DNA of 35,622 bases, taken from the IMG/VR virus record IMGVR_UViG_3300044972_001663, positions 1 to 35,622 of that record. The stretch is one strand, 5' to 3'. Of the stretch, positions 7,963-34,456 are shown piece after piece (position 1 is the first letter of the stretch; each line of letters opens with the position of its first letter). The notes beneath the pieces are model-generated. The model made no database searches. It was not told the DNA's origin and saw only the letters and a list, made by a program, of their open reading frames with translations. This DNA is from a virus. A program made the position numbers and the translations under genes.

Positions 7963-7967
7963 CATAT

Positions 7968-11693: not shown

Positions 11694-11731
11694 TGGCTCC
11701 TCTGGTTAGATTTAGGGAATACAGGTCGTTT

Positions 11732-12974: not shown

Positions 12975-13048
12975 GTCAGGTCCTTTGCAAAATGTGAACA
13001 AATGCGCGTAACACGAGCGCCGTAAAATCTTACAATATATAGGGCGTT

Positions 13049-13068
13049 TTAAAATACACCTATTTTAA
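13049..13068 (-). terminator. AT-rich hairpin after the surface-protein gene
   Basis: TTAAAATA-CACC-TATTTTAA (8-bp stem) directly follows the stop codon of the large surface protein. It is AT-rich and lacks a T-tract on the minus strand, so terminator strength is doubtful. Confidence 0.35.
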
Positions 13069-18191: not shown

Positions 18192-19316
18192 GTGCCATTT
18201 CTAAATCGTATTGGAAGCGGGTCAATCCGTAAATTTGGTTTTAGAGCAGGCATGGCTCCTGGAGGCCCAACCGCAGTATCAGCAACTAGTGGAGACATGC
18301 AGGCCGCAATTACTTTTTCACCACCAGCAATGCTTGGAACTCAACCATTAACTTATTTGGCTACATCAAGCCCTGGTGCTTTGACTGCAATAGGTGCATC
18401 ATCTCCGCTGATTGTCACTGGTCTAACGAATGGAACGTCTTACACTTTTACTGTTACCGCATTTAACTCATTTGGCGCGACTCAATCTTCTTCTTCAAGC
18501 AGTATTGTGCCAGCAGGCGTTCCAGTTGCACCAGCAGCACCAACCGTAACTGCCGGTAATGGTCAGGTAACTCTTTCGTGGACAGCTCCTTCAAATAACG
18601 GTTCTGCAATAGTTGATTATATTATCTACTACGCAACATCTGTTGGTGGGACTTATTCCGAGTTTGGTGATGGGGTGGGTGTTTCAACATCCACAACCGT
18701 AGGAGGACTGACCAATGGAACCGCCTACTTCTTTAAAATAGCTGCTCAAAATGCAATTGGCAACAGCGCTCAATCGGCTGCCTCGGTTTCCGTTACGCCA
18801 GTCGCCCCACCAGTAGTACCAGTAGTACCTCCAGTTGTTCCAGTAGTCCCCCCAGTGGTCCCAGAGGCTCCAATAGTTCCAGTAGTCCCCCCAGTGGTCC
18901 CACCGCCAGTTGACCCATGTGCTGGTGCCCCAGCAATTGACACCATCTACTATGGAACTAACTGTGAAGGCTATACCCTCCAATACGTATGGAATAACGG
19001 ATGTTATGGTGAATACGCTAGATTCACCACCCCAAACTCAACGGCTTGCGGCTTTCCAGTTCCAGTTGTTCCAGTAGTTCCCCCAGTTGCCCCAACATGC
19101 GACTGCTGTAAGGGAACCTTTCAAACCCAGTACAGATGCATTAGCACCCCAGGGGGCTGTAGGCAGCAGTCACGGACAAATATTGTATTTAGCGGTGTTG
19201 GCGGCATTAAGGGCTCGGGTAGTGCTTGCACTGGAAGTTGCTCTGGCGGCGGCTGTTCGGCATACACCCAATACGGCACTTATGCCAATACGGGTGCATC
19301 CTGTTCCCCTTGCTAA
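18192..19316 (+). CDS. minor tail protein with FN3 domains, Pro-Val repeats and Cys-rich end
   Basis: A 374-residue protein with a GTG start and AAGG upstream. The N-terminus (FLNRIGSGSIRKFGF) is a common start of phage tail proteins. Two fibronectin-III-type domains follow (about 24-108 and 113-203), then a PVVPVVPP-rich linker, and a C-terminal region with about 15 cysteines in CDCC, CxxTPGGC and CSGGGC patterns. The gene contains a perfect 27-base direct repeat (18837-18863 and 18876-18902) within the Pro-Val linker. It probably binds receptor or carbohydrate. The Pro-rich linker is a candidate substrate for the nearby hydroxylases. Confidence 0.7.
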   Translation: MPFLNRIGSGSIRKFGFRAGMAPGGPTAVSATSGDMQAAITFSPPAMLGTQPLTYLATSSPGALTAIGASSPLIVTGLTNGTSYTFTVTAFNSFGATQSSSSSSIVPAGVPVAPAAPTVTAGNGQVTLSWTAPSNNGSAIVDYIIYYATSVGGTYSEFGDGVGVSTSTTVGGLTNGTAYFFKIAAQNAIGNSAQSAASVSVTPVAPPVVPVVPPVVPVVPPVVPEAPIVPVVPPVVPPPVDPCAGAPAIDTIYYGTNCEGYTLQYVWNNGCYGEYARFTTPNSTACGFPVPVVPVVPPVAPTCDCCKGTFQTQYRCISTPGGCRQQSRTNIVFSGVGGIKGSGSACTGSCSGGGCSAYTQYGTYANTGASCSPC

Positions 19317-19663: not shown

Positions 19664-19700
19664 TTGTCTACAGATATGCGACCATAGTATGATTGCATCA
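19664..19700 (+). promoter_or_regulatory. promoter for a leaderless start
   Basis: TTGTCT (19664-19669), an 18-base spacer, and TATGAT (19688-19693) are followed six bases later by the ATG at 19700. No Shine-Dalgarno sequence is present, so transcription probably starts at the ATG. Confidence 0.45.
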
Positions 19701-19930
19701 TGACAAGTCCATGGCAAGAATATAAGAAAAAACTTGGTGTAACGCGTCCTTGGGATTTCCTTAACCCAAGTGTAGAGCGAGCCACAGATGACCAAGCTGC
19801 TAGCAGACTGTCTATATGTGAAACATGCCCAAGTCTCATAAGGGCAACACATCAGTGCAAGGAGTGTGGGTGTCTGATGAAGCTAAAGGTTAAGTTGGCT
19901 CATGCTACATGCCCACTTGATAAATGGTAG
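19700..19930 (+). CDS. small Cys-rich phage protein (CGC type)
   Basis: A 76-residue protein with CETCPS, QCKECGCLM, KVKLAHATCPLDKW. This knuckle with a CP..KW end is a common small family in cyanophages and freshwater phages, probably binding zinc. It ends immediately before the start of the 720-residue oxygenase gene, so both are co-expressed. The start appears leaderless. The function of the family is unknown; its place suggests it belongs to the modification island. Confidence 0.65.
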   Translation: MTSPWQEYKKKLGVTRPWDFLNPSVERATDDQAASRLSICETCPSLIRATHQCKECGCLMKLKVKLAHATCPLDKW

Positions 19931-22093
19931 ATGATTTCCGTTCCGGTAGCTTCAAACGATATTGCATTTCGTAACCAGTTAAGCATATTCTGGGACAACC
20001 ACAAATTAATATACGGAGATGATGCTTACAAAAAAGCACATGCAATAATCGTCTCTCAAAACTCTCCTGAACAAAACAAAATTAAAGACGGAGAGTGGGG
20101 GCTTGATATTCCGTTAACGGTAGTTGAACCATATTGGTCGCATCTGCAAAGAGAACACTCCCGAGTGCTTCTGCCAATAAACATTCAATCAGGACTGTCT
20201 CAGATAATAAACAATTTTGACGACGATGAATTGTTGGAACTAATTGACTGCGACATGTTTCATATCAAGGCATATGAGGAACAGGAAATTAACGAAGACG
20301 AATTTTTAGTATGCGACATATATGAAGACTGGCACCTAAAAAGCAAGAGTGACCTATATGGGGTTATAGAGAATTTTTTAGATAAAGACCAGTCAGCCTA
20401 CAATGGCGGATTTGTTCCAATTATTGGTTATGTAAAAACATTTAAGAAAATTCTAAAATACTGGACAGATGTGCATTTGCAGATATTTGATTCCACTGAC
20501 GATACACGCATTCAGTGGTGGTCGGGCATGTACTCACTTCAAGTCGCCTGCGCTAACAACGGCATAAAGATGAAGGCAATTGATAATTGCTATATACCAA
20601 GTTTGAACGAGTTAAAAGACAATCACCATATAGCCCATTACTGCTGCGATACCGTATTCTCCAAAAATAAAGAACTCAGAAAACCGGACAAATTTGATTA
20701 CACGGGTTTTCCAAGCAGCTATTTCTATGACCAAATAAAAAACTGGATGAAGAAAATGAACTCGACGAAAAATGACGGTAAAATATTATTTCAACTTCCT
20801 GAACCACTAGTTGAAAAACCTCTTTGTGTTGAGTCTTTCTTTAGTGAAGAAATGCTTGTAAGGGTTAAGGATTCAGTCAAGGATACGGGGGTTGGTACGG
20901 ACAGGGTCCAGTTCCATACCATGCAGGGAAGATGGTATGCCCAGATTGGGTTTGATGAAGATATTGAGGATTTCATTCTTAATAGGGCAAGAACGATATT
21001 TAATGACGAGTCTCTGCAGAAGTCTTATTTTCTTGCAGCCAGATACCAGCGTAAAGATGGATGTATTCCACACCTATGGGAGCACGTTGACCAAAATGGA
21101 ACACAATTAACGCTTGATATAGCCATTGATAATTCGGCGAACTGGGGTCTTGTTGTTGAAGGTGAGTATTTTGAGCAAAAACCAAATGATGCAATTGCAT
21201 TCTGCGGTCAACAGCACACACATGGTAGGCCGCCATATCCAACCATCGACGAAGAAGTGTTTACTACAGTGTTGTTTTTACATTTCACCCAGCCAGAACA
21301 CTGGATACAAAAAGATAGAAATTTAATGAACACCTACAGCAGGGATGGAGTCGTAAGATTCTTTAACCGCAATCGATACTTTCCGCTACCTGATACACCA
21401 ATCAATCAGCCTGTATGTAGTTGCTGTGATTTCTCTGGGGTATTAAATTTCTACGATGAAATTACTGGACATAGAATGGATGAACCATCAGAGACTGTTG
21501 ATATGTCGGTAACAGGTAAAATCGAATTGGCCCCTGGAATAATGAAATACACAATCCCAAAAGAATCAGCACGCATTTTAAAAGGCTTGATACAAAACTC
21601 CATGTTGAAGCAGTGGCAACCAGCAGAGGTTTATAGCAAGAATGACAAGGCAGAGGTTGACCAAAACGCAAGAAATTGCTACAACTACTTCATTAGTGAA
21701 AAGGAATTAAGCTGTCACCCACAAGACCCAATAAGGCGAGCTGCAGAGTCGCTCAAAAGTGGTCTTGATGGAATTGTTGAGGACTTCAGGTCAAGGTATT
21801 CCATAGTTCCACTAAAATCACATCACACTGTCTTGCTTCGCTACGAAGAGGGTAACAAGTTCAGCAACCATATTGATGCCCACCCAGAATTCCCTAGAGT
21901 TGTATCTGTTTCAATGTTCTTAAATGATGACTTTGAGGGTGGAGATTTAGAGTTCAAAGAGTTTGGTGTAAAAATCAAACCAGATGCTGGTGACGTGATT
22001 GTGTTCTGCTCATCGTTCCCATATATGCATCAGGTTCATCCGGTGGAAATAGGTATTCGCTATGCAGTTGTCAAGTGGTACCAGTGGACCTAG
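19931..22093 (+). CDS. three-domain protein: glycosyltransferase-like plus two 2-oxoglutarate/Fe(II) oxygenase domains
   Basis: A 720-residue protein. Residues 1-275 look like a GT-A fold: LPINIQSGLSQIINN, the DxD-type LIDCDMF (DCD at 106-108), YNGGFVPIIG (158-166) and a WWSGMYSLQVA segment (196-206) resembling peptidyl hydroxyproline/serine glycosyltransferases. Residues about 290-465 form a first oxygenase domain with H385-x-D387 and QQHTHGR near 427-433, ending HFTQPEHW. Residues about 530-720 form a prolyl-4-hydroxylase-type domain with H647-x-D649, a distal His at 700 or 703 and R710. The combination would allow hydroxylation then glycosylation of the same target. Domain assignments are by motif; the glycosyltransferase call is the least certain. 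Confidence 0.75.
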   Translation: MISVPVASNDIAFRNQLSIFWDNHKLIYGDDAYKKAHAIIVSQNSPEQNKIKDGEWGLDIPLTVVEPYWSHLQREHSRVLLPINIQSGLSQIINNFDDDELLELIDCDMFHIKAYEEQEINEDEFLVCDIYEDWHLKSKSDLYGVIENFLDKDQSAYNGGFVPIIGYVKTFKKILKYWTDVHLQIFDSTDDTRIQWWSGMYSLQVACANNGIKMKAIDNCYIPSLNELKDNHHIAHYCCDTVFSKNKELRKPDKFDYTGFPSSYFYDQIKNWMKKMNSTKNDGKILFQLPEPLVEKPLCVESFFSEEMLVRVKDSVKDTGVGTDRVQFHTMQGRWYAQIGFDEDIEDFILNRARTIFNDESLQKSYFLAARYQRKDGCIPHLWEHVDQNGTQLTLDIAIDNSANWGLVVEGEYFEQKPNDAIAFCGQQHTHGRPPYPTIDEEVFTTVLFLHFTQPEHWIQKDRNLMNTYSRDGVVRFFNRNRYFPLPDTPINQPVCSCCDFSGVLNFYDEITGHRMDEPSETVDMSVTGKIELAPGIMKYTIPKESARILKGLIQNSMLKQWQPAEVYSKNDKAEVDQNARNCYNYFISEKELSCHPQDPIRRAAESLKSGLDGIVEDFRSRYSIVPLKSHHTVLLRYEEGNKFSNHIDAHPEFPRVVSVSMFLNDDFEGGDLEFKEFGVKIKPDAGDVIVFCSSFPYMHQVHPVEIGIRYAVVKWYQWT

Positions 22094-22098
22094 TGTTC

Positions 22099-22383
22099 TT
22101 ATAGGAAGTGCTTGAGGATAGCCGTTGTTGCTAGAACGACCCAGCAGATATTAAACCAAATAATTGTTGGCATAGTCTTGATTGTCGATGTGCCAATCAA
22201 AGCGATGCTTGATGCAAGGGCAAAAAGGTACATCCACCACCATTGCTTGTCAAAGATAAGACCTGGAACAATGATTGAAATTTTGGTCATAAAAGCCCAA
22301 GCCTCAATGATGTTTACCTTTGTCCAATAGTCCCTTTCGCCCCAACGGCGCGTCACCTGCATGATTTCAGAGGGTTTGAGCAT
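22099..22383 (-). CDS. three-segment membrane protein, 94 aa
   Basis: A 94-residue protein convergent with the oxygenase gene. After a basic helical N-terminus it has hydrophobic segments around ISIIVPGLIF, WWMYLFALASSIALIG and TIIWFNICWVVLATTAIL. Probably an inner-membrane protein, of unknown function. It is the only clear membrane protein in the modification island. Confidence 0.55.
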   Translation of the reverse strand: MLKPSEIMQVTRRWGERDYWTKVNIIEAWAFMTKISIIVPGLIFDKQWWWMYLFALASSIALIGTSTIKTMPTIIWFNICWVVLATTAILKHFL

Positions 22384-22429
22384 GTAGAAAATGTAGCATA
22401 AATTGACCGAGGTGTGTAGGATTAATCAT

Positions 22430-22933
22430 ATGACAACCGAAACCCCCGTGCGTTTGAAAATCAGGGAAAGAAGTTGCGGAACTTGCACCAAGTGCTGTGA
22501 AGGTTACCTAACCGCAACGGTTGGTGATATCAGCCTTTACCCAGGAAAGCCATGTCATTTTGTGGAAATGAACTGTGGGTGTTCTATTTACAAAGATAGA
22601 CCAGTAGAGCCATGTCAAACCTTTAAATGTGAGTGGCTAAACCAACCGCTAATACCAGAATGGTTGAAGCCCAACTTGAGCAATGCCATTTTTATTTATT
22701 ATCCCCCAATTCCGGACGCACCATCAAATTCGATTGAAGCATATGAACATACCAAACTCGTAGAGGCTGGTAGCAAAATCACTGCGCAGACGCTGTCTTG
22801 GGCAGTGGCTCACTATACGTTCAATGGTTTGAATCTCACGTGGGAATACGACCACGGAACAGGAGGCGCAATCGGCTCTGAGGATTTTGTAAAAACATAT
22901 TATGGAGAAGGATACAGAGCGGGTCGGAGGTAA
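22430..22933 (+). CDS. YkgJ-type Cys-cluster (zinc/iron-chelating) protein
   Basis: A 167-residue protein from the ATG with AGGA eight bases upstream. The N-terminus carries CGTCTKCCEGY, followed by CHFVEMNCGCSIYKDRPVEPC and FKCEW, the pattern of the YkgJ family, which binds zinc or an iron cluster. Such proteins are often encoded near peptide- or protein-modifying enzymes. Its presence among oxygenase genes suggests metal supply or a redox role, but this is not proven. Confidence 0.7.
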   Translation: MTTETPVRLKIRERSCGTCTKCCEGYLTATVGDISLYPGKPCHFVEMNCGCSIYKDRPVEPCQTFKCEWLNQPLIPEWLKPNLSNAIFIYYPPIPDAPSNSIEAYEHTKLVEAGSKITAQTLSWAVAHYTFNGLNLTWEYDHGTGGAIGSEDFVKTYYGEGYRAGRR

Positions 22934-22939
22934 TAGCAT

Positions 22940-23371
22940 ATGTCCATGGAAAATCAAAATCAAGATTACTGGATTAAAAGAGGCTTTGAATTAAATGTTC
23001 CATCTTGGGAAGAAGTGATACACAACTTCAATCAAAGCGTAATCAGGCAATACCCCATAGTTCATTTTCCTCTTGGTTTTTTTCACTCCCTAGATGGGCA
23101 TGAAATAGATACGGTTAAGCCGGTTCTGGAAAAACTCAAACTAACGGTTGCTCATGTTTATTTCAATGTGTCAGTTGATGCAAGTGGATTTGGTATGCAC
23201 GTTGACCCTGTGGATGTCTGGTATTGGCAGGCATGTGGAACAACAGTCTGGGAGATAGATGGCGGCCCAACATGGGAACTCAGTCCTGGGGACTTAGTTT
23301 TTATCCGTGCTTGGGTGGGACATCGCTCTACTGCGTTGACTCCTCGCATTGGGTTGTCAATGTCTCTTTAG
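22940..23371 (+). CDS. cupin/2OG-Fe(II) oxygenase-like protein, 143 aa
   Basis: A 143-residue protein with GGAGG before the ATG. The C-terminal half is a double-stranded beta-helix: GFGMHVDPVD gives the metal ligands H87 and D89, and RAWVGHRS gives H128. The spacing and WELSPGDLVFI segment fit JmjC-type or cupin 2-oxoglutarate oxygenases. It is short, so a partner or simple substrate is likely. The next gene converges on its 3' end and overlaps it. Confidence 0.65.
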   Translation: MSMENQNQDYWIKRGFELNVPSWEEVIHNFNQSVIRQYPIVHFPLGFFHSLDGHEIDTVKPVLEKLKLTVAHVYFNVSVDASGFGMHVDPVDVWYWQACGTTVWEIDGGPTWELSPGDLVFIRAWVGHRSTALTPRIGLSMSL

Positions 23372-23999
23372 CAAGCAATTGTTCTTCTTCTATTTTTTTC
23401 ATAATATTTGGGTGCATTTGGTCAAAGTTGAAAGCAATCACAGTTTTCCTATTGGCTGACAGGAACGCGGCAGACCTGTGTATTAGCTGCGCTGGAAAAA
23501 TAACAATGTCACCCTCTTCAGCCGTAAATGAAAAAAGCTTCTGAGTGAATGGCTCAATATATTCGGTAATATGTGATTCGATTGGGGTTTCAAGAAAATA
23601 AATTCCAGCCCAATTACAACCGCAGTGTGGGTGCCATTGATGATGGTCTTTTGTATTGTACTGCTGGAACCATATGGAATTAATTTCTGGTAAATGCCAT
23701 CCGAGTTGATTGGGCATGGTAGATAAAACATTCATAATTTTTGGAGTTACAAAATCAACCCACGGTCTATTGGTGACAGTATCGACCATTAGGTAATCAT
23801 ATTTTGTTATGCGCTGATATCGGTCGTCTGGCTTCGTGACCGTAGTATCAACTCTTTCAACGCGTTCAATCATGTCTAGGATTATTTGTTTATTTTCGTA
23901 GTGGTACGGCATCTTTCTTACGAAGTACTGCATTACAAGCGGGAAGACCTTTGTGTCGTTATCTAACATATTTGTTTTCAGCACCTTCCAATTTCCCAT
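23328..23999 (-). CDS. 2-oxoglutarate/Fe(II) oxygenase-like protein (phage type)
   Basis: A 223-residue protein. QQYNTKDHHQWHPHCGC (H123/H125), then FTAEEGDIVIFPAQLIHRSA (H174) and NRKTVIAFNFD (R184) form the double-stranded beta-helix core found in many phage oxygenases that use an H-x-H or H-x-D ligand pair. GGAG precedes the ATG. It overlaps the upstream oxygenase gene by 41 bases, so the two are co-translated. The substrate is unknown. Confidence 0.75.
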   Translation of the reverse strand: MGNWKVLKTNMLDNDTKVFPLVMQYFVRKMPYHYENKQIILDMIERVERVDTTVTKPDDRYQRITKYDYLMVDTVTNRPWVDFVTPKIMNVLSTMPNQLGWHLPEINSIWFQQYNTKDHHQWHPHCGCNWAGIYFLETPIESHITEYIEPFTQKLFSFTAEEGDIVIFPAQLIHRSAAFLSANRKTVIAFNFDQMHPNIMKKIEEEQLLAKETLTTQCEESTQ

Positions 24000-24597
24000 A
24001 CTTCTCCAGTAGGGGTAATTCCCTCAAAAGCCTAGCGTCGTGATTTGACTCATTTTCTTCGGATTTCAAATGAGGTTTTCTAAAAAACCAATGTTCAGGT
24101 TCGGCAAAATGGAAAAAAATCATATGGACAAAACTCATCGGATTCCTGCTAGGGAAAACCTCTCTCCAGTGAAGGTCATTTTCTCCATCGTAAACAACTG
24201 CCCAATTATCCTTCAAGGTGAATGCCTCACCGTTGACGTATAGTGGCCAATCAACATTGGACGACAACTGAAGGTCAATTGTGTAACTACAAGCATTGTC
24301 GTCTAGGTGGGCGGGAAGATTTGGAAGTGGGTTCAAGAACCCTGAGTATTTTGCGCTTTTTATATAAGACTGCTTGGCGGTTTTGGAAAAATTATCAGAG
24401 GCAAGTTCATATAACCGGTCGTGCATTTCGTCGGGAAGAATTATTGGGCTGTCATCCTCCCTCTCCCCGTTTGATGGCCTGATGCTTGATGTGTAACGAC
24501 CGTGCTTTTTATCTATCACTCTCTGAGAAGAATTGATTTGTTCAATAATTAGTGACAACTGTTCCGCAGTGAACACATCTTTGATTACGTGTGCCAT
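23959..24597 (-). CDS. 2-oxoglutarate/Fe(II) oxygenase-like protein
   Basis: A 212-residue protein. Key residues are LPAHLDDN (H97, D99), DLHWREV (H143, R145) and the ending FFHFAEPEHWFF. The same layout, including the HF..PEHW end, appears in the middle domain of the 720-residue protein at 19931, so the two are homologous. GGAGCGAAG precedes the ATG. It is the third gene of the minus-strand cluster. Confidence 0.7.
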   Translation of the reverse strand: MAHVIKDVFTAEQLSLIIEQINSSQRVIDKKHGRYTSSIRPSNGEREDDSPIILPDEMHDRLYELASDNFSKTAKQSYIKSAKYSGFLNPLPNLPAHLDDNACSYTIDLQLSSNVDWPLYVNGEAFTLKDNWAVVYDGENDLHWREVFPSRNPMSFVHMIFFHFAEPEHWFFRKPHLKSEENESNHDARLLRELPLLEKYGKLEGAENKYVR

Positions 24598-24625
24598 TCT
24601 TCGCTCCGTTGTAAAAACGGTTTAC

Positions 24626-25333
24626 CTATTCCCCAACAACTGTTGGTTCAACTTGATTCATGTCTTTATTCGGTAGAAGGTATGGGGAGTACGGCTCTGG
24701 TGTATCGCACATTATGAATGTACTGATAATCCACTTGTCGCTGGAGATTGGCACGGCCCCACAGTGTGGGTGTGTCCAATTGGCTGGGAACAGGGCAATG
24801 TCTCCAGCATTTGCTTTAACCCGAACCTCGTTGTCTGGAAAGATTGTTTCGCCACCAATATCAACCGTATTCAGGTACAGAATCGCCCCAAGGACCCTTG
24901 ATGTAGATTGACCGCCCGTCCAGACGTCGCCATCAATATGCACCCTGTAATACCCTTGTCCCTTTTCATATTTTTGAAGTCTCCACCCAGTGTGTTTCGG
25001 GTTTGGTGCAGTTCTGAGAAATGGGTACTCCTCTAGGTAGAGAGATAGCGCCGCATTGACGGCACTATCAACCTCGCTCTCAATTTTCATAAACGTGCTG
25101 TGCTGCGGAAGATTCAGTGGGGCTATGGTGTCATATGAATAGCTGAAATCAGATGTGTGTTTTATAATTTTTTGAACACCACCCAGTGTTGGTCCTGGGT
25201 AGAAAAGTTTGTCAAAAGAATCCCTGCATGCATCAACCAGTTGACTGCAGGATTCGCTACTTAGCATTGATTTGGCAACAGCAATGTGCGAACCCCTACC
25301 TGCTGGAAACTCTAATAAATGAAAGTTTGACAT
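24626..25333 (-). CDS. prolyl-4-hydroxylase-type 2OG/Fe(II) oxygenase
   Basis: A 235-residue protein with all elements of a P4H-type domain: WRLQKYEKGQGYYRVHIDGD (H132, D134), LGAILYLN, GGETIFP, NAGDIALFPANWTHPHCG (H188 or H190) and K200 for 2-oxoglutarate binding. It overlaps the upstream gene by one base. Of the free-standing enzymes it is the closest to collagen-type prolyl hydroxylases. Confidence 0.8.
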   Translation of the reverse strand: MSNFHLLEFPAGRGSHIAVAKSMLSSESCSQLVDACRDSFDKLFYPGPTLGGVQKIIKHTSDFSYSYDTIAPLNLPQHSTFMKIESEVDSAVNAALSLYLEEYPFLRTAPNPKHTGWRLQKYEKGQGYYRVHIDGDVWTGGQSTSRVLGAILYLNTVDIGGETIFPDNEVRVKANAGDIALFPANWTHPHCGAVPISSDKWIISTFIMCDTPEPYSPYLLPNKDMNQVEPTVVGE

Positions 25334-25752
25334 TATCCCTTTTCTACCATAAATTCATGAGTCTCAATCTCCTTGTCTTTGTGCTTTACAATTATCTTGT
25401 ATAGCCCTTCTGATTTCGGGAGAATAGCAAACCTCAATGTTCTTTTGTCTTGAATCATCGTTGTGATTTTTGTTTCTTTGTCCTTGTAGAAAACAAATAA
25501 ATCAATATCGCTAGACGGAATTATGTCATTAGAATAATATGCCATAAAAGATGAGTCAACAATTAACTCATGGTCGGGCAAAAGCATTACTGGCTGTTCT
25601 GGGATGAGGAGCAGTCCAACCTTCGTTCGGTCAAAATCAACATCTTTTGCTATCTCGGCGTAACCAAGCATAATTGGAACTACGAACTCTGTTGACAACG
25701 CAGTTGCCTCAGGGAGCATGGATTCGTCTGGGCAATATATATACCTAAGCAT
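25333..25752 (-). CDS. hypothetical protein, 139 aa
   Basis: A 139-residue beta-rich protein (MLRYIYCPDESMLPEATALS...). It lies between an unknown phage family and the prolyl hydroxylase, in one operon with tight overlaps. The C-terminal half (LRFAILPKSEGLYKIIVKHK) looks like an immunoglobulin-like or beta-sandwich fold. No family recognised. Confidence 0.6.
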   Translation of the reverse strand: MLRYIYCPDESMLPEATALSTEFVVPIMLGYAEIAKDVDFDRTKVGLLLIPEQPVMLLPDHELIVDSSFMAYYSNDIIPSSDIDLFVFYKDKETKITTMIQDKRTLRFAILPKSEGLYKIIVKHKDKEIETHEFMVEKG

Positions 25753-25755
25753 CTT

Positions 25756-26616
25756 CTACTCCAAACTCTTGTCTATCGCGTGCTGTTCCTTTTTATACTT
25801 GCCTTCCCATTTCTCTTCTCTAAACACGGCATCAAATCCAAGGTTGTCTAAAATTTTATGCATACCTTCGTCGCCCTTTAGGAGTGATGATTTTTTAATA
25901 ATTTGTGAGCGCTTAAATGGAATCACGTGCAACAAGGGTGTCCCTGCCTCCACATTAAAACCGTTTGCTGTTTTTATATTGAAGACCACATTGCAATGAT
26001 GGTACGAGTCCGTATTGACAACTCCAGCTAAGATGTCGTAGTCGTTATTTGGTTCCCACTGGGGCTGTATGAAAAGACAAGACCAACCCGGAGCGGTTTT
26101 AAGCAACCACGGATTTGTTAGTTTGAGGTAGTCGCTATCTGGGCGACCCTTAACATCCCTGATTGGGCATTCACCAGTTTGCCTGTTCGCAAACTGTTGC
26201 CCTTGAACAACTTCCTGACTAAATATACGATGCTTATCCATGAACTCAGGAGGATTGTCATGTATAGCCTCACTTGCAGCGGAAGATTGCCTGTATGTCG
26301 TGTAACGTGCATACCACTTAGACTCAAGTTTTGAAACTGGCGGACGCACTTCAAGTCCTGCCCATAATGGAATCGTATAACCCATTCTCATATAGTCACC
26401 AAGGCCGTAGCATCCACGTAAACCCATGTCGCCAGCAAGTATGTTTTTGTACCAATCTGGAGTTTTTCTGTTATTTGCGTAAATCGCTATCCTTGGGTGC
26501 CATAACTCGTTGGCAATTGGCACGGCAAGAAGTTCTCCTTCTTTAGGCGTTCTAATATCCTCAAATATTTCTGCTTTTTGAAGCGAACTCTTAAACTTTT
26601 TTGAAAATAGACGCAT
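25756..26616 (-). CDS. conserved phage protein, DUF6065-like
   Basis: A 286-residue protein with the pattern LTNPWLLKTAPGWSCLFIQP, then ILAGVVNTDSYHHCNVVFNI and EAGTPLLHVIPFKR, which I recognise from a conserved family in cyanophages and bacteria (DUF6065-like). It overlaps the end of the halogenase gene by 26 bases. AAAGGTGAT precedes the ATG. Function unknown; the association with halogenase and oxygenases suggests a shared pathway. Confidence 0.55.
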   Translation of the reverse strand: MRLFSKKFKSSLQKAEIFEDIRTPKEGELLAVPIANELWHPRIAIYANNRKTPDWYKNILAGDMGLRGCYGLGDYMRMGYTIPLWAGLEVRPPVSKLESKWYARYTTYRQSSAASEAIHDNPPEFMDKHRIFSQEVVQGQQFANRQTGECPIRDVKGRPDSDYLKLTNPWLLKTAPGWSCLFIQPQWEPNNDYDILAGVVNTDSYHHCNVVFNIKTANGFNVEAGTPLLHVIPFKRSQIIKKSSLLKGDEGMHKILDNLGFDAVFREEKWEGKYKKEQHAIDKSLE

Positions 26617-28063
26617 GTGGTATCACCTTTGTTTTCATACGGTCGATGGACAACTCGGAGAAATGCTCTTTCATTTCCTTTCTTGAAGCATATGCCTCTA
26701 TTTCCATGGTCGCAACTTCCCTGTTGAGGACTCCCTGTCCTTGTGCAACATGCCAAAAGTGGGGTGATGCAAACAATTCATAACCGCCATGATTAAAAAT
26801 TGGTATGTCAAAATCATGTGGTGTGCGTTCTTGCCAAAGGTCAAGGAGTTCTTGGAGGGAGTCCGGTATTTGTGCAGATTTTTGTGCAATCCACATCTCG
26901 GAGTCGTCCCTGTCAGAAATATAATGCAAGGCAATCATACACAGGGCATTATTCATCAGAGCCTCAAACCTCTTGTGATACTGCGTAATCATTGCTTTTG
27001 ATTCAGGTGTAATTGTCGGTATTAGCGAGCAAATCATTTTTGCTTGAATAATTGAGGTAGAAATTGATGTTGCTTCTAGCGGCTCAATAAAAGCAGAGGA
27101 CAAACCAGTACATACAACATTTTTGAATAGTTGCGTTTTGTAGTGTCCTGATTTCCATTTAATGATTCGCGGCTCAATATGGTCACCGTGTATTTCCTGT
27201 ATTTCCTTCACGGCCTGTTCGTCTGAACAGAAGTCGGATGAATAGATATAACCATTGCCACGGCGCTCTTGGGTTGGTATCTCAAACATCCAACCACTTG
27301 GCATCGCTCTTGCCCTTGTGTATGGATGTATATTCCCATCTTCTTGGCTTGGTGTAGGGAATACAGCAGAACTGTCGCACGGGAGGTACTTCCGGTAATT
27401 AACAAATTCGTCATCTGGAAGAATGCGTGACATTATCGCTCTGTGGAACCCAGTTGCATCCACGAAGAAATCGCCAGCAATGTTTCTTTCTCCGTCAAGT
27501 TTGATTGATTCAAGCCAGCCGGTTTCCGAATTTTGAACTACATCAACAATTTCACCCTCAATAAATCTGATTCCTCGTCTTGCACCAAGATTTCTGAGAT
27601 ATTCATTTAATTTGAATGTATCAAAATGGAATTGGTTGGTGAGATTATGTATTTCGTTTAATGGTCTGTCTATAATCATGTCATCAAGCAGTCGATGCGA
27701 AGTCACGTTCGTTAGCAACATGTTATTTTCTAGGGCGTAAGCATAATTCCCAGAATATCCATAAACAGTTTTTTGTCCTAATGCAATGCTATGGAAATAG
27801 TACGGGGTGTGTTTTGTCCAATTTTCGTAATAGATTCCGTACTTATGAGTTGCCTTGGTCGCCGTAACCATTTCACCCTTGTTCATGCCAAGGGAATCGC
27901 AAAATTGTCGCCAATGCTCAGTCGAGCCCTCTCCAACACCGATGATTCCAATTTTTGAAGAAGATACAACGGTTACTTTGTGGTGTGGTAAGGCGTGATT
28001 TAGGGTTAATGCCGTTATCAAACCAGCAGTCCCCGAACCGCAAACAATTATCTCTTTATTCAT
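26591..28063 (-). CDS. flavin-dependent tryptophan-type halogenase
   Basis: A 490-residue protein. FAD-binding GSGTAG is at 9-14, GVGEGSTEHW at 42-51, and the catalytic lysine equivalent is K74 in ATHKYGIYYENW. The family motif WxWxIP appears as WMFEIP at 258-263, with Phe in place of the second Trp. FIEPLEATSIS contains the conserved Glu region. It should use reduced FAD, oxygen and halide to halogenate an aromatic or indole substrate. A phage halogenase is known from cyanophage (VirX1). The start is two bases after the preceding stop, so it is coupled. No flavin reductase is seen in the window, so a host one would be needed. Confidence 0.85.
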   Translation of the reverse strand: MNKEIIVCGSGTAGLITALTLNHALPHHKVTVVSSSKIGIIGVGEGSTEHWRQFCDSLGMNKGEMVTATKATHKYGIYYENWTKHTPYYFHSIALGQKTVYGYSGNYAYALENNMLLTNVTSHRLLDDMIIDRPLNEIHNLTNQFHFDTFKLNEYLRNLGARRGIRFIEGEIVDVVQNSETGWLESIKLDGERNIAGDFFVDATGFHRAIMSRILPDDEFVNYRKYLPCDSSAVFPTPSQEDGNIHPYTRARAMPSGWMFEIPTQERRGNGYIYSSDFCSDEQAVKEIQEIHGDHIEPRIIKWKSGHYKTQLFKNVVCTGLSSAFIEPLEATSISTSIIQAKMICSLIPTITPESKAMITQYHKRFEALMNNALCMIALHYISDRDDSEMWIAQKSAQIPDSLQELLDLWQERTPHDFDIPIFNHGGYELFASPHFWHVAQGQGVLNREVATMEIEAYASRKEMKEHFSELSIDRMKTKVIPHASIFKKV

Positions 28064-28065
28064 GG

Positions 28066-28671
28066 TCAGCTAAACCAGGTGACCATCGAGTATTTAATCT
28101 CTTCGCTATTTTCGCCTGTTGGTTTTGCATAGTGATAAAAAGGAAAGTTTGAAGGGAATATAACAACGCTTCCCGCTACGGGCTTTAATTCGATATCCAA
28201 AAATGGAAAAACTAATTCTCCACCGTCAGTAACATCATTCATAAAAGCAACAACACTAAAAACCCTTGAGTTGTCTGGGTGGTGGTCTACGTGTCCTTTG
28301 TATTCTGCTCCACGACCGTACTTGAGCAAACCCCAACCATCGTTCTTTGATACCTGAATATTAAATGTGTTTCTGTAGTTCCAGACACATTCTTCAAGTT
28401 TCTTGTTAATGGACTGCATTTCCTCAATAAGAGGCTTAAGTCTTTCTACTTGACATTCTTCAAGTGGGACATAAAGCGGATTTAAACTTACAACCAAATT
28501 TGACCTGTAGTCACTTATGGTGTGGTCTTTGTCCCCGCCAGTAGATGCCCTGTTCCACTGTAGATAGCCCCAGTCTTGCTTGGTTTCTTCTTCAACCAAT
28601 GGAATGAATCTTGGGTTTCTAAATGCAGATTTGTATTCGTGTATGAATTGACCGTGCTCAATTATTTCCAT
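28066..28671 (-). CDS. prolyl-4-hydroxylase-type 2OG/Fe(II) oxygenase
   Basis: A 201-residue protein with LLKYGRGAEYKGHVDHHPDN (H127, D129), VAFMNDVTDGGELVFPFLDI, KPVAGSVVIFPSNFPFYHYA (H180) and a distal K193. It is close in layout to the C-terminal domain of the 720-residue protein. It is the first gene of the minus-strand enzyme operon and lies directly downstream of the collagen-like tail gene, with the halogenase following. Confidence 0.8.
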   Translation of the reverse strand: MEIIEHGQFIHEYKSAFRNPRFIPLVEEETKQDWGYLQWNRASTGGDKDHTISDYRSNLVVSLNPLYVPLEECQVERLKPLIEEMQSINKKLEECVWNYRNTFNIQVSKNDGWGLLKYGRGAEYKGHVDHHPDNSRVFSVVAFMNDVTDGGELVFPFLDIELKPVAGSVVIFPSNFPFYHYAKPTGENSEEIKYSMVTWFS

Positions 28672-28713
28672 AGATTAACCCTACATCATTTCTTTGTTGT
28701 GTTTTTAATGATA

Positions 28714-30132
28714 TTAGTCTATATCTGCGATTACTGTTGATGTAGAGACTGATGCTGTGACTTCTTGTCCCAGAACGATAACGGCACCAACTTGACCAGT
28801 TGCACCCGTTTCGCCTGCCGCTCCTGGGTTTCCTGGATTTCCTGTTCCAGCGGCTCCACCTGGGACTGTTGCATTGTGCCCTGCTGGGTTGATTCCAGTC
28901 GTATTTGGGTTTGCTTGATGGGTGTGACCATTTACCGCCGCATTGTGTCCTTGGGTATGAGGGGTCGGATGGGTATTATGACTGGCGGCGGTATGAATAT
29001 GGTGGAAAGTCGGATGCGTATGCTGGTTCCCAAGATGGTGAGCAGGCTGTTGTCTTGCGGCATTATGACCTGGGTTACCTGGGTGGTGATGGGAATAAGG
29101 GTTTCCAGGGGTATGGTGCGCCCCTCTATGGGCTGCAGGTCGTCCTTTAGCAGCAGAAGTATGGTGTGCACCAACATGAGCGCCAGAGTGTGTTGCCGTA
29201 CCATGACTTCCTGGATTATGAAATGGGTTTCCGGGGGCGTGGAAGTGATACGGCGTAGCAATGTTATGTGCGATTCCATAAGCAGGGTTTGTGGCCGCCG
29301 CAATATGGGATGCTCCATCTGGGTTCGCTTGGTGAAATGGAGATGCTGCAGTATGTGTCGGAACTTCTGTGTGCGGATTTATGTGTGAAAAAGGATTTCC
29401 AGGGTGGCTTGTTCCTGGCGATGTAGAACCTGTATTTCCGCTGGTTCCAGCATTTCCTGGGTTTCCTGGGTTGCCAGCAGTACCGACCGTTCCTTCGGAA
29501 ACAAATGTTCCTGAGCCAGTCACTATCTTCGCTAAGACCACGACCATTCCGCCGCCTTGACCACCAGCGCCGCCGGTTCCACCCGTTCCTGCTGTTCCTG
29601 CTGTTCCTGGGTTTCCAGGCGTTGCTGGTGCCGTTCCTGCTCCGCCGGGATTTGCTGAACCAGCATTACCAGCAGCACCAGAGGCGCCAGATGCACCTAC
29701 TGCGCCAGCATAAATTTTCTGAAGTTCTCCGCCAACAAGTCTGGAGCCAGATATCAACTCGTCAAAGTTTGTAATTTGTGAAGCAGTGATTGAACCGCCA
29801 ATAGCATTTGCTGAATTGTACGAAATGTTTCCGTCGTTTCGGGTAAGAACCGTTCCACCCAAAACAGAAGTCGTTTGAGATGTTCCAGAAGGCATTCCTA
29901 TAGTTCCATTGTTTGTCAATGTTTCCTTGACAAAAATCTTAAATCCGTTGGTGAAAAGTGTTGCGCCTGAGTTTACGGTGAGATTTGTGAAGTAATAGTC
30001 TCGGGTCAAGAAGTTGACTCCGCTTGCATAGATGATGTTTCCATCTAAACCGTTACCAAAGAGTTTATTTAATTTGGCCTGATAAGCATCCGTTGTTGGG
30101 CTTAGGAGACCGCTGATTTTTTGAAAGGCCAT
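28714..30132 (-). CDS. collagen-like, histidine-rich tail protein
   Basis: A 472-residue protein from an ATG three bases after the preceding stop; the frame is open further but that part is an artefact of the neighbouring gene. Residues 1-140 are a beta-rich domain similar to the gene upstream (FTNLTVNSGATLFTNGFKIF). Residues 140-240 are Gly-rich and collagen-like with NPG units. Residues about 243-428 hold some 36 histidines with HPGNP, HHHPGNPG and TPGNPY motifs, an unusual His-rich domain. A last collagen-like stretch (GTGNPGNPGAAGETGATGQ) leads to the C-terminus. NPG units are candidate sites for prolyl hydroxylation by the adjacent enzymes. Histidines may bind metal ions, as in some phage fibre tips. 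Confidence 0.75.
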   Translation of the reverse strand: MAFQKISGLLSPTTDAYQAKLNKLFGNGLDGNIIYASGVNFLTRDYYFTNLTVNSGATLFTNGFKIFVKETLTNNGTIGMPSGTSQTTSVLGGTVLTRNDGNISYNSANAIGGSITASQITNFDELISGSRLVGGELQKIYAGAVGASGASGAAGNAGSANPGGAGTAPATPGNPGTAGTAGTGGTGGAGGQGGGMVVVLAKIVTGSGTFVSEGTVGTAGNPGNPGNAGTSGNTGSTSPGTSHPGNPFSHINPHTEVPTHTAASPFHQANPDGASHIAAATNPAYGIAHNIATPYHFHAPGNPFHNPGSHGTATHSGAHVGAHHTSAAKGRPAAHRGAHHTPGNPYSHHHPGNPGHNAARQQPAHHLGNQHTHPTFHHIHTAASHNTHPTPHTQGHNAAVNGHTHQANPNTTGINPAGHNATVPGGAAGTGNPGNPGAAGETGATGQVGAVIVLGQEVTASVSTSTVIADID

Positions 30133-30134
30133 GA

Positions 30135-30878
30135 TTACCCGACTTGCAAATAGATTGACGTCCCAGCGGCGCAACCAGTAGAACCCGCCACCTCGACTGT
30201 TATTCCCGACTGTAGCACATTGCCAGAAGAGATGATAATAACCACCCCACCACCGCCGCCGTTTACAAGACTGGGTGTTGCTTTTGCAGAAATGAATGAG
30301 GTTGACGTTGAGCAGGATATATACCTTGCTGCAATAATTACGACTCCTCCACCCTCGCCACCAGTAGCAGAACCACCAGCACCGCCACGTAGAAATGTCG
30401 GGGTTGTAGAAGTCGCAGAAACAGCCCATCCACGAACCGCCTGCATGGCGTGATAATAATAGTTAGTCCCACCTAATGCTGCCGTTGGCGCAGTTGCTGT
30501 TTGTGTTGCAGAAGCCCCACCAAGACTGTGGGTAACGCTGGTGTTTAATGCACCACCCTGCGCAATGGAGCCAGATGTTGCAAAACCCACAACATATCCG
30601 ATTCTCGCACCTGCACCAAGGGTTAATGTGTCTTTAACGAATATTCTGTAACCATTCGGGTTGAGTGTGATTCCATCATTAATCGTGAGATTGGTGTACT
30701 GCTTGTCTGACGACAGAGACGTGTTTGATGAGATGGTTACCGAACCATCAATACCAGAACCGTAAATTGGGTCAGGCGTATTTAGGAGCGCGACAGATTT
30801 GGTAAACGAGTCAGATAGCGATGAAGTTCCCTCCGCTGAGGAAACTGTCGTTCTGTTCAAGCGAACAAACGACGGCAT
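30135..30878 (-). CDS. tail-fibre protein with Gly-rich C-terminus
   Basis: A 247-residue protein. Residues about 30-110 share a domain with the next gene (YTNLTINDGITLNPNGYRIF against FTNLTVNSGATLFTNGFKIF), implying gene duplication. The C-terminal half has Gly-rich loops (GGAGGSATGGEGGGVVIIAA, NGGGGGVVIIIS), as in glycine-rich adhesin tips. It shares one base with the gene before it. Confidence 0.7.
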   Translation of the reverse strand: MPSFVRLNRTTVSSAEGTSSLSDSFTKSVALLNTPDPIYGSGIDGSVTISSNTSLSSDKQYTNLTINDGITLNPNGYRIFVKDTLTLGAGARIGYVVGFATSGSIAQGGALNTSVTHSLGGASATQTATAPTAALGGTNYYYHAMQAVRGWAVSATSTTPTFLRGGAGGSATGGEGGGVVIIAARYISCSTSTSFISAKATPSLVNGGGGGVVIIISSGNVLQSGITVEVAGSTGCAAGTSIYLQVG

Positions 30879-31240
30879 TAAGACTCCTCAATGCCGTTTA
30901 CTATAATGTTGATGCTTGAGTTCGCACTAGCAGAACCAATAATTTGGTCGCTGTTTGTTGCGTTTGCTGTACCACCGTTGTTATTGAGAACAAGGTTGGT
31001 CGCAATCATCACCGACTCGTTTGCAGCCAATGACAACTGATTAACAAAGTTTTGACCCGTTGCTTGGCTAACACCCGCTGGCTTGCATACCAAAGTAACA
31101 GTGGCGGCACCGGCAGTCGTGTTGCAGAGCATAATCTGCTTTACGATTGTCGTTACGCCCAATGGAACCGTGTAAAGAACTGTCGTTGTGGTGGTCGTGA
31201 GCACTGTTGGACCAGCAATTCGTTTTTGTGTTAGTGCCAT
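30878..31240 (-). CDS. small tail protein, 120 aa
   Basis: A 120-residue beta-rich protein (VLTTTTTTVLYTVPLGVTTI...). Its central pattern TVLYTVP...V.NI..TNAT is shared with the 102-residue protein at 34456, so the two are paralogues of a small fibre- or tip-associated family. It shares one-base or TAATG overlaps with both neighbours. Confidence 0.65.
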   Translation of the reverse strand: MALTQKRIAGPTVLTTTTTTVLYTVPLGVTTIVKQIMLCNTTAGAATVTLVCKPAGVSQATGQNFVNQLSLAANESVMIATNLVLNNNGGTANATNSDQIIGSASANSSINIIVNGIEES

Positions 31241-31693: not shown

Positions 31694-34456
31694 TTAAGCC
31701 TGAGCCTCTTTCCATGAGAGTCGTCCGAACACGTTCACGGTCGATGAGCCAAGGTTGGTAACCATGATGTGGAGTGTGTCTGGACCATCAGGGTAGAAGC
31801 CTGTTTGGGTTCCAGCCGCGCCGCCACCTAAAACTGAGTTTCCAAGGTCACGCACCTGTCCGAGGTCAATGGAGTTTGCACCAGTTCCCACGAAAAAACC
31901 ACCAGTTATTTCACCACCCGAAACCGTCGCCACTGCACCACCTTGGTAGTCTGCGATTTGTGCCAAACTGGATGTTGGTGAATTAATCGCCGTAAATGTT
32001 CTTGATGCAGACGGGGTGCCATTCAGCACTGCAGTTACGAGAAGATTGGCATTAGCATTAGTCGTAGTTACGTCAAGTGCATTGAGAATCAACTGCATTC
32101 TGTTTACGAGTTCTCGAGCACCAAAAACACCAGTCTGACCGTTATCCACCGATGGCGAAACACGAATTGCGAACAGTGCGTTTGTTCCGCCAGCAGAAAT
32201 GGAGGTAGCATTCTTTTGCCCGTAGGTAAAGATGAGCGACTTGTCGTCGTCATATCTTCCGTCCATCATTACAGAAGTTCCCCAGTGAGAAATTGACGGA
32301 GCATATGTTGGAAACGCATATGATACTTGAACTGGGTTAGTGGTTGAGTAGGTAAATGCTGTTCCAGTGGTCAAGCCCATCGGAGCAATAGTTGCTACTG
32401 GGTTTGTTGATGTAAGGGCTGAACTAAGCGTGATTGATGTACCGCTGTTGATGATTGCGATGTAGCAACCGTCTGGCACGCCACCAGCAGAAATCACTCT
32501 CATTCCAACCTGCATCAAAGCACTTGAAACAACCGTGACGGTGTTAACTCCGGCTACTCCAGTAAGAGTTACACCCGTTGCTCCAGCCTTTGCTCTTGTG
32601 CAACCAGTAAATGATGTTGAAGAGATGCCAGTGTAGTTAACAAATTCGTAACCAGTACTCGCACGTCCAATCCTAAGTGTTCCCGATGTAGGGAATCCAA
32701 GTGTGGAGGAAACGTTGATTGTCGTATCTGCAGTACCAACGTTTGCTGTCGTGTATGTGGAAAATGGCTCGGTTGTTGTTTCGTAACGAGCAGGAAGGTT
32801 TCCTGAACGCATGTAAGACTCTGCGTTTAAGTTGTTGTTCAACATCTTGTGACAATAAATTACTTCGCCGTTGTTCGCTCTCATTCCCCAGCGAATTGCT
32901 CCAGCGCCGTACCACGAGTAGTCAATGTAAAACATTTGCATTTTCTTTAAATCGATGTTGTAACCACTCTTACCAGTTCCATCAAATTTGTCAAGGTTCC
33001 ATTCGCTCTGTGGAATCGCCGTATCCACGGTCATTGAAATCTGAGAGTTGAGGATATTGTTTCCCCTATACGCAGGGCTGATGGTCATTGAGGTATCGCT
33101 TGCAATATCTGTAACTCTGTAAGAAATACCACGGATAACAATATATTGACCAACAGTAAGTTGCTTGGAGTAAAAAGTTGGGAATGCAGAACTTGTCTGG
33201 GTTACTGTGCAACTACCTTGTTCCGCACTTGACTTTCCAGCAATTTGGTATGTTGAACTTCGTCTTACTGCATAAAGCGTTGTGCCGTCAAATTCAAAAA
33301 AGATACCGTTTTGTTGGTCAAACATTCCAAGCCTGTTGACACAACCAAACCAGTTTGAAACAGTCGCATAGTATGGACCAGATGCGACAATCGCTGTTGG
33401 GGCTGTCACTGGGGTATACGTGAATGTGTCGTACCCAGTGATTGTGTAGACATTAAATGTTCCGTTGAACCCTTCTTCTATGGCACCGTAAACCACAACC
33501 TCTGAACCAGGAAGAAGGTTGTGTCGCTCTTTTGTTCTTACTGTGCAAAGCCCAGTTCCAGAATCATATGAAAGAGCGTCAAGTTGAAGTGATGGCTTAA
33601 GCACTGTTCCTGAACTGATTTGGATACCTTTACCTGATTGGTATCGGAAATATCGGCGTGTTTGACGAACTGCTGACTGGTAATTTGATTGGCTATTGCT
33701 TGAGAAAATTACACCACCGTCAAAAGGTCTGTGTAGGAAGTTTCCCTGTGGCTGCGTGTAAACAGCAGCACTACCAAAAGCAATGGTGCCAGTTGGCTGT
33801 GCTTCTGCATAGTAAATAAATGATGTTGAGGAAACAATTGTTGATACTGTAAACGAACCGTTTGGAGGGTTGGTTGACGCCGTTAGACCCCTTATTCCGA
33901 TTTCGTTTCCGAGAGACAGGTTGTGTGGGATTGTTGTTGTAACCGTTATGGCCAGACCGCTATAGGTGACACTGGTTGGTGCTGCACCAATTTGAGCAGA
34001 AGTGTAAAGGTTGCCAATAAAAATCAATGTTTTGTTGCTATCAAAAATGTTTGTCAATGTTGAAGTATTTACAGAACTCGCCGTATATGTTGCAGAGGTG
34101 GTACCGTTGCTTGTCTCAATAAGGTAGTTACCGTTTGCTATAGGAAGAAACGAGTCCTGAACAGATATCGCCGTTCCCACAGCAGGCGCACCGGAGGCAA
34201 ATGTAATAGTTACAGTTTTTGAACCGTTTGGTAAGGAAATACCAGTAACCGTGGTAATTGGGGCTTGGGTATTAAACACGAACGGACGGTTGTCGGTTAG
34301 GGCAACGTTTTCCCATTTTGTAATTTGAGTACCGTATTCAAAGTCGGTGTCAATCAAGGACTGAGCAGTAGATACCCTGAATTTTTGTACTGGGTCAGTT
34401 AGGTTCTCGGTGCCTTCGACTCTGTTGCTTGCAATGGGGAGTTTATTGATAGACAT
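31694..34456 (-). CDS. large structural (tail/baseplate) protein, 920 aa
   Basis: A 920-residue protein with the N-terminus KLPIASNRVEGTENLTDPVQ and SLIDTDFEYGTQITKWEN, which I recognise from a conserved family of large tail proteins in freshwater and marine phages. The rest is beta-rich with many Thr/Ser/Asn repeats, including TGISLPNGSKTVTITFASGA-type segments. It probably forms part of the tail tip or fibre base. It overlaps the next gene by one base (TAATG). Confidence 0.75.
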   Translation of the reverse strand: MSINKLPIASNRVEGTENLTDPVQKFRVSTAQSLIDTDFEYGTQITKWENVALTDNRPFVFNTQAPITTVTGISLPNGSKTVTITFASGAPAVGTAISVQDSFLPIANGNYLIETSNGTTSATYTASSVNTSTLTNIFDSNKTLIFIGNLYTSAQIGAAPTSVTYSGLAITVTTTIPHNLSLGNEIGIRGLTASTNPPNGSFTVSTIVSSTSFIYYAEAQPTGTIAFGSAAVYTQPQGNFLHRPFDGGVIFSSNSQSNYQSAVRQTRRYFRYQSGKGIQISSGTVLKPSLQLDALSYDSGTGLCTVRTKERHNLLPGSEVVVYGAIEEGFNGTFNVYTITGYDTFTYTPVTAPTAIVASGPYYATVSNWFGCVNRLGMFDQQNGIFFEFDGTTLYAVRRSSTYQIAGKSSAEQGSCTVTQTSSAFPTFYSKQLTVGQYIVIRGISYRVTDIASDTSMTISPAYRGNNILNSQISMTVDTAIPQSEWNLDKFDGTGKSGYNIDLKKMQMFYIDYSWYGAGAIRWGMRANNGEVIYCHKMLNNNLNAESYMRSGNLPARYETTTEPFSTYTTANVGTADTTINVSSTLGFPTSGTLRIGRASTGYEFVNYTGISSTSFTGCTRAKAGATGVTLTGVAGVNTVTVVSSALMQVGMRVISAGGVPDGCYIAIINSGTSITLSSALTSTNPVATIAPMGLTTGTAFTYSTTNPVQVSYAFPTYAPSISHWGTSVMMDGRYDDDKSLIFTYGQKNATSISAGGTNALFAIRVSPSVDNGQTGVFGARELVNRMQLILNALDVTTTNANANLLVTAVLNGTPSASRTFTAINSPTSSLAQIADYQGGAVATVSGGEITGGFFVGTGANSIDLGQVRDLGNSVLGGGAAGTQTGFYPDGPDTLHIMVTNLGSSTVNVFGRLSWKEAQA

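Follow-up and report, generated by a model that had tools for sequence, protein, structure and literature searches.

Mimivirus L230 is a collagen lysyl hydroxylase/glucosyltransferase that acts on a viral collagen-like protein. In plants, an HPAT/prolyl-4-hydroxylase (P4H) pathway modifies extensins and peptide hormones, and Dictyostelium has the Skp1 P4H/GnT1. Known HPAT and PF11397 members act on hydroxyproline, and the sugar transferred in plants is arabinose. For the collagen-like proteins of Escherichia coli O157 prophages we know of no associated hydroxylase or halogenase cassette. These are tail proteins, and resemble the case described here in that collagen-like sequence is encoded in phage DNA (PMC3368898). 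To explain why phages carry so many 2-oxoglutarate (2OG) oxygenases and halogenases, published work has put forward 2-oxoglutarate control and DNA repair (Sullivan 2010, PMC3037559), and secondary metabolites or capsule decoration (PMC7824862). No description of a phage system with hydroxyproline or a prolyl hydroxylase was found in the open-access literature. The stretch analysed here, IMG/VR record IMGVR_UViG_3300044972_001663 (positions 1 to 35,622; 35,622 bases, 45.6% GC; the whole stretch is referred to as the window), encodes eight enzyme-type genes between tail genes. It is likely that these form two modules that modify tail proteins of the phage itself after translation.

The window is probably a fragment of a T4-like myovirus, since the product of 31694–34456 matches phrog_5838 and shows 42–45% identity to structural proteins of Synechococcus myoviruses (cyanophages). 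A first-pass annotation of this DNA had placed enzyme genes with metal motifs, a halogenase and a Cys-cluster gene (22403) among the tail genes, and all were confirmed there by open reading frame (ORF), Pfam and PHROG analyses. It had also treated the enzymes as a single system. The enzymes are retained, but as two modules rather than one, with 25333–25752 as a further recurrent cassette gene. The genes concerned are the following.

18192–19316, plus strand: tail protein with FN3 domains, PPVVPVVPP polyproline repeats and a Cys-rich end (fn3 E 4e-17; phrog_31, central tail fibre, E 9e-15).
19931–20788, plus strand: HPAT-like glycosyltransferase domain, residues 1–286 of 19931–22093 (PF23452 E 2.6e-6).
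20786–22093, plus strand: tandem 2OG-Fe(II) oxygenase domains, proposed prolyl hydroxylase (PF13640 E 4.9e-14; family alignment).
22403–22933, plus strand: Cys-cluster protein that recurs in the closest cassettes (phrog_9155 E 1.8e-30).
22940–23371, plus strand: JmjC/cupin-type oxygenase (JmjC_2 E 3.6e-6).
23328–23999, minus strand: 2OG-Fe(II) oxygenase of the Oxy_5 type (PF13759 E 8e-9; phrog_81).
23959–24597, minus strand: 2OG-type oxygenase, a relative of the 19931 middle domain (phrog_2954 E 1.4e-11).
24626–25333, minus strand: P4H-family enzyme, P24 (PF13640, 2OG-FeII_Oxy_3, E 2.2e-8; P4H matches in PDB).
25333–25752, minus strand: small recurrent cassette protein, p253 (in 52/80 halogenase clusters).
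25756–26616, minus strand: DUF6065-type protein containing a dUTPase-like beta-clip (model pLDDT 87; Foldseek to dUTPases E 7e-4).
26591–28063, minus strand: predicted flavin-dependent halogenase (FDH) of the PrnA/VirX1 superfamily (PF04820, Trp_halogenase, E 3.5e-98).
28066–28671, minus strand: P4H-family enzyme, P28, a core cassette gene (PF13640 E 7e-13).
28714–30132, minus strand: collagen-like Gly/His/Asn/Pro-rich tail protein, COL (N-terminal domain common to COL and 30135–30878).
30135–30878, minus strand: Gly-rich tail protein, GLY, the constant partner of COL (cassette comparison).
30878–31240, minus strand: small tail-module protein, p30878, syntenic with GLY/COL (in 58/80 halogenase clusters).
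31694–34456, minus strand: virion structural protein, marking the block as virion genes (phrog_5838 E 1.7e-267).

In the first module, relatives of the double-2OG part of 19931 were dereplicated at 90% identity to 19 clusters. A polyproline protein, defined by 14 or more Pro in a 40-residue stretch, is encoded within five genes of the double oxygenase in 15 of the 19; of 164 other loci, 21 encode any protein of this kind (Fisher p 3.6e-9). Its gene is typically three genes upstream, with repeats such as PPVTPPVTPPVVPP; in the window it is 18192–19316, where PVVPVVPP repeats occur alongside FN3 domains. Two of the clusters below the threshold have weaker Pro repeats (APVIAPVI, PVSPVDP) and two lie at the starts of truncated contigs. 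The carriers are not one family, and comprise FN3 proteins of about 200 aa as well as proteins of 315, 437, 542 and 1212 aa.

The glycosyltransferase partner of the double oxygenase also varies, and is a fused HPAT (this window), a PF11397 protein or a GT61 protein. PF11397, which we take to be the GlcNAc-transferase family of the Skp1-hydroxyproline enzyme, is the partner in loci L230, L232 and L234 of the present comparison (E to 2e-29), and GT61 in L005, L219 and L227, which a gene in L222 resembles by eye. In the 720-aa product of 19931–22093, HPAT is followed by a middle 2OG-type domain, which matches phrog_2954 and carries HVD...H, and a C-terminal 2OG-FeII_Oxy_3 domain (E 4.9e-14), whose nearest solved structures are PiuC/PKHD hydroxylases. 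The HPAT match exceeds the family cut-off (27.5–29.9 bits versus 23.9), PF23452 is found at E 0.01 or better in 6/7 homologues of the N-terminal part, and DCD, a DxD-type metal motif, is invariant in this domain family. A predicted model of the N-terminal domain matches GT-A enzymes (LgtC, GT6; Foldseek E 3e-7); in the predicted structure of the full fusion, this domain alone is confident. These features point to an HPAT-family glycosyltransferase of GT-A fold, predicted to transfer sugar to hydroxyproline.

Because known HPAT and PF11397 members act on hydroxyproline, the simplest reading is hydroxylation, then glycosylation, of the polyproline repeats. The 2OG domains of 19931 would hydroxylate prolines in the repeats of 18192, and the fused HPAT-type domain would put sugar on the resulting hydroxyproline. 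Bacteriophages would then be expected to glycosylate hydroxyproline, a reaction known mainly in eukaryotes. Assignment of every enzyme to the collagen-like protein was rejected, as it is polyproline proteins that accompany the HPAT/2OG fusion and its relatives; the glycosyltransferase that the first-pass annotation had set beside the collagen-like genes is retained, but its partner is 18192.

As in Mimivirus L230, a virus-encoded 2OG hydroxylase is joined to a glycosyltransferase. The phage system differs in having prolyl-type hydroxylases, an HPAT-like transferase, a probable polyproline target and an additional halogenase, and in belonging to a tailed phage. The plant and Dictyostelium pathways likewise proceed from prolyl hydroxylation to sugar transfer onto hydroxyproline, and HPAT and PF11397 proteins are also found beside the phage oxygenases; here, in contrast, the system is phage-encoded, within one polypeptide in the window, and the HPAT match is weak (E 2.6e-6). 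L009 and L014 also have HPAT domains, with P4H-like and 2OG enzymes encoded nearby as separate genes. The HPAT domain is fused to a methyltransferase in L009 (10001–11383) and to an SGNH-type hydrolase in L014 (9383–10840), which suggests that HPAT is a mobile module in viruses. L010–L013 have stand-alone HPAT genes.

The second module is a halogenase cassette adjoining the collagen-like gene, with the usual order p30878, GLY, COL, (p253), P28, halogenase, DUF6065, (P24). Eighty of the 115 halogenase relatives in IMG/VR were fetched. A search from the tail side, using GLY loci with enough flank (dereplicated, n=24), found a Gly/His-rich COL in 24/24 and a halogenase in 24/24 (23 downstream, 1 upstream), with P28 in 21/24 and DUF6065 in 19/24. 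The co-occurrence of enzymes and collagen-like genes in related genomes, which the first-pass annotation had put forward as a check, is therefore borne out, with the halogenase at every one of these loci. From the halogenase side, COL was present in 24/33 loci, and on the other side in a further five. The cassette is on the other side or strand in several loci (L087, L088, L101, L109); the genes stay linked although their order and strand change, so that frozen synteny does not account for the pattern. Two metagenome-assembled genome contigs (L239, L240) also carry the cassette. In L110, genes for three Gly-rich proteins that contain GxGxG/His motifs are immediately followed by a cluster (9992–16244) of four halogenase genes and several 2OG genes.

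It is improbable that the enzymes instead produce a small molecule bearing halogen and hydroxyl groups, or modify surface polysaccharides of the host, with the tail genes as neighbours through a variable host-interaction region. Known flavin halogenases act mostly on free or carrier-bound small molecules. Iyer et al. (2021, PMC7824862) proposed secondary metabolite synthesis or capsule decoration for a cyanophage halogenase/2OG/cupin/carbamoyltransferase cluster. S-SSM7 has a cluster of this kind, with sugar enzymes. The present locus is similar to that of Iyer et al. in combining a halogenase with 2OG and cupin enzymes in a phage genome, but no carbamoyltransferase was found here, and tail proteins are the likely substrate. 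The annotated genes of the window yielded no carrier protein, non-ribosomal peptide synthetase or sugar-nucleotide pathway. A metabolite pathway would also leave unexplained the presence of the enzymes at every GLY/COL locus, and does not account for the amino acid content of COL, which tracks enzyme content as set out below. The best reading is that the enzymes modify tail proteins rather than small molecules, and the earlier proposal that the phage hydroxylates, glycosylates or halogenates its own fibres is supported by both co-occurrence and composition.

COL proteins have an N-terminal Gly-rich domain common with GLY, plus a low-complexity insert. The window COL (472 aa) contains 8 NPG, 15 [GH]N[AP] and 36 His, and no Trp; a His-rich stretch at about residues 243–419 is a larger anomaly than the NPG repeats. 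It lacks the long uninterrupted Gly-X-Y triplets of collagen, its short GNP/GNA runs being interrupted by the His-rich stretch, and it has no Pfam or PHROG match. A longer ORF, 28714–30429, was rejected as COL, as its start falls within the next gene, 30135–30878. The GLY profile has no solved structural relative, and the window GLY protein has no tblastn match in isolate phages.

HxD...H is readable in all seven oxygenase/cupin domains of the block (as HxH in 23328). This triad, together with 2OG-FeII_Oxy_3, identifies 28066, 24626 and the C terminus of 19931 as predicted P4H-like 2OG oxygenases. The nearest solved structures to P28 are bacterial procollagen-proline dioxygenases (E 1e-8); 24626, used alone as a database query, found one relative. 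In PDB alignments, 26591 has the FAD motif, a Lys aligned with that of other FDHs and an EPLE segment. Against Trp 5-halogenase, it has GSGTAG (GxGxxG), the conserved Lys in ATHKYGIYYENW, and GWMFEIP, a WxF variant of WxWxIP; with all three, it is a predicted FDH. The 25756 product scores below the DUF6065 (PF19541) family cut-off (17 bits versus 26.6) and is described as DUF6065-type only for this reason; a Pfam dUTPase match is present in 6/43 homologues. In view of its dUTPase-like beta-clip, it is more likely to be a binding or presenting protein than an oxygenase. DUF6065-type relatives are carried by about 46 haloarchaeal tailed viruses (HF1-like, from Halorubrum/Haloarcula; AY190604.2, 48119–49003), near virion/baseplate genes; in the single region looked at, no halogenase is annotated close by.

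Gene content, family membership, co-occurrence and composition together suggest how this module could operate. P28 would hydroxylate proline of the COL low-complexity insert, and the target of P24 hydroxylation would be the Asn of G/H-N-P/A motifs or the Pro next to it. The halogenase would halogenate aromatic residues of the insert, most likely His, and the remaining oxygenases would contribute more hydroxylations, while the DUF6065-type protein and p253 may present the substrate. The purpose could be receptor adhesion, metal binding or stability. X-Pro-Gly, put forward earlier as the target, would be part of this scheme, with His and Asn also implicated.

The case for His comes from comparison of COL with and without the halogenase. 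A COL label requiring >2.5% His would bias this comparison, which was therefore made without that rule. In 75 halogenase-bearing clusters, His makes up 1.8–16% of COL (median 6.65). Among the halogenase-free relatives (L255, L267, L286, L238), COL has 0.2–0.3% His in the two clusters that pass a strict flank rule, and 0.2% and 0.7% in L286 and L238. In a set selected partly by His content, COL averages 7.6% His, against 0.6% for GLY and 1.8% for the remainder of the locus. In L255, L267 and L286, a PF11397 GlcNAc-transferase takes the place of the halogenase (E 2e-24 to 3e-28), and COL carries Tyr/Asn/Pro repeats. As COL is His-rich with the halogenase and His-poor without it, this suggests that His is the halogenase target. 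It is less likely that the halogenase acts on Tyr (or Trp) of the tail protein, the His-rich insert serving, for example, in metal binding. VirX1 accepts phenols and large aromatics (PMC8407142), some Tyr is present in every halogenase-associated COL, and the adhesin beside the halogenase of S-SRM01 has Tyr and Trp and no His. However, Tyr is higher in the almost His-free COL proteins of halogenase-free loci (3.8–6.8%, versus 2.9% on average with the halogenase), and the window COL contains no Trp. A likeness in Gly/His-rich composition only, without homology, is seen in the Nereis jaw proteins Nvjp-1/Nai11527; the jaw coating is reported to be halogenated and cross-linked, with zinc held by a His-rich protein (PMC13120676).

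P24 and Asn were compared in 54 dereplicated loci (32 with P24, 22 without). P24 labels were taken from a uniform six-frame HMM search of all loci, replacing greedy gene calls; L082 and L094 gained P24, and L168 lost one borrowed from a wrongly merged cluster. This correction was made after the exceptions were seen, and the two-by-two counts use the corrected labels: COL has at least two NPG in 30/32 loci with P24 and 2/22 without (p 1.5e-10). Asn forms 9.4% of COL with P24 and 6.0% without, and the words most associated with P24, of 288 tested, are NAG, GNP, NPG, GN and N. In phylogenetic generalized least squares (PGLS) on the halogenase tree, the slope for Asn percentage is 3.4 (p 1.7e-6), with p 1.6e-5 for NPG. 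No P24-linked difference was found in GLY, the first 130 aa of COL or the rest of the locus. Residue x of G-x-P-G is Asn in 75% of cases with P24, and Ser/Thr in 66% without. GC content as a cause of the Asn signal was rejected by partial correlation. Pro without a preceding Asn is slightly lower with P24, and Asn therefore seems to be the determinant of the association. That P24 hydroxylates the Pro of N-P-G, with Asn merely a recognition residue, is a tentative alternative of some weight: P24 is a P4H-family protein, and NPG and NP are among its top associated words. Against this, NAG is the top word, GNA, HN and N not before P are also enriched with P24, and Pro outside NP is lower rather than higher. 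A family of the L046|15 / L079|15 type lies beside the halogenase in 18/22 P24-free loci and 1/32 P24 loci. A function search for it found none; it may be an alternative modifier for Ser/Thr-type repeats.

Related arrangements exist in isolated phages. The second halogenase of cyanophage Syn10 is VirX1 (exact match to PDB 6qgm). Three Gly-rich proteins (22–35% Gly, 2–4% His) are encoded 0.5 to 2.7 kb upstream of the halogenase pair, and a DUF6065-like gene and 2OG genes lie downstream. Of the three Gly-rich proteins, two have matches to phrog_863, 'tail fiber assembly' (E 6e-63 and 5e-67). One Syn10 tail protein has no solved structural relative. P-TIM40, P-RSM6 and S-WAM1 have an arrangement like that of Syn10, and the S-SRM01 halogenase is flanked by a tail fibre gene on one side and an annotated 'adhesin tip complex' on the other. 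VirX1 belongs to the same superfamily as the window halogenase and shares its setting beside Gly/His-rich tail, DUF6065-like and 2OG genes, but the window enzyme is distant (110 bits). The consulted passages of the review (PMC8407142) state no physiological substrate for VirX1; VirX1-type halogenases may be linked to tail proteins.

Taken more widely, there is perhaps an even chance that tailed phages possess both extensin-like and halogenating/hydroxylating systems for their receptor-contacting tail parts. The former would consist of Pro hydroxylation followed by hydroxyproline glycosylation by interchangeable HPAT, PF11397-type and GT61 enzymes; the latter would give adhesins a chemically hardened or metal-binding surface, made from a Gly/His/Asn-rich insert, and VirX1-type halogenases would modify adhesins. 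For the enzymes' presence in phages, tail modification offers a specific alternative with named substrates and residues, and extends to the structurally solved VirX1 of an isolated phage. That enzyme content tracks the amino acids of the adjoining tail protein in many related phages suggests a natural substrate for viral halogenases. If tail modification is true, gene sequence by itself does not reveal the chemistry on which phage host recognition depends, and the cassettes offer enzymes that modify peptides.

Several observations weigh against tail modification. No modified residue has been observed, the support being comparative genomics, and the substrate of 19931 itself is deduced from neighbouring genes. 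To our knowledge, Asn hydroxylation is not established for the prolyl-hydroxylase family, to which P24 belongs, and halogenase-free COL proteins are Asn-rich without P24. The halogenases of S-PM2, Syn1, S-MbCM6, P-SSM2, HTVC008M and CP21 are not beside Gly-rich genes; as a group not linked to tail genes exists (S-PM2, Syn1, S-MbCM6, Sf-CH11, P-SSM2), the claim covers the tail-linked group only. P24 changes state only four times on the tree, so that independent pairs by themselves do not reach significance; another 18, more distant clusters show a P24–Asn trend of the same sign, though a weak one (p 0.05–0.10). Lineages that lack the halogenase and have a His-poor COL are represented by only four loci, which may go back to two independent origins. 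The few state changes and lineages, and the weak replication, would fit composition–enzyme associations that are by-products of shared ancestry among a few cassette lineages, with no enzyme–substrate relation. This explanation is nevertheless unlikely, as PGLS remains significant under full Brownian covariance (Asn percentage p 1.7e-6; NPG p 8e-4), the P24 effect is confined to the COL insert, and the polyproline link holds across unrelated carrier proteins.

Elsewhere in the window, 148–2378 holds a chaperone-type pair, in which an AAA (MoxR-like) ATPase precedes a protein that has a VWA-like DASGSMS motif. Two tRNA genes, Arg(TCT) and Asn(GTT), lie side by side at 7890–8043, and 8719–9342 is a proteasome-subunit-like (Ntn hydrolase) phage gene (PF00227 E 3e-7). 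The product of 12225–13001, a VanY-type D,D-carboxypeptidase with a peptidoglycan-binding domain, is probably a lysin. The 1327-aa product of 13069–17052 has a signal-like start, a beta-helix region, Thr/Pro-rich linkers and degenerate repeats.

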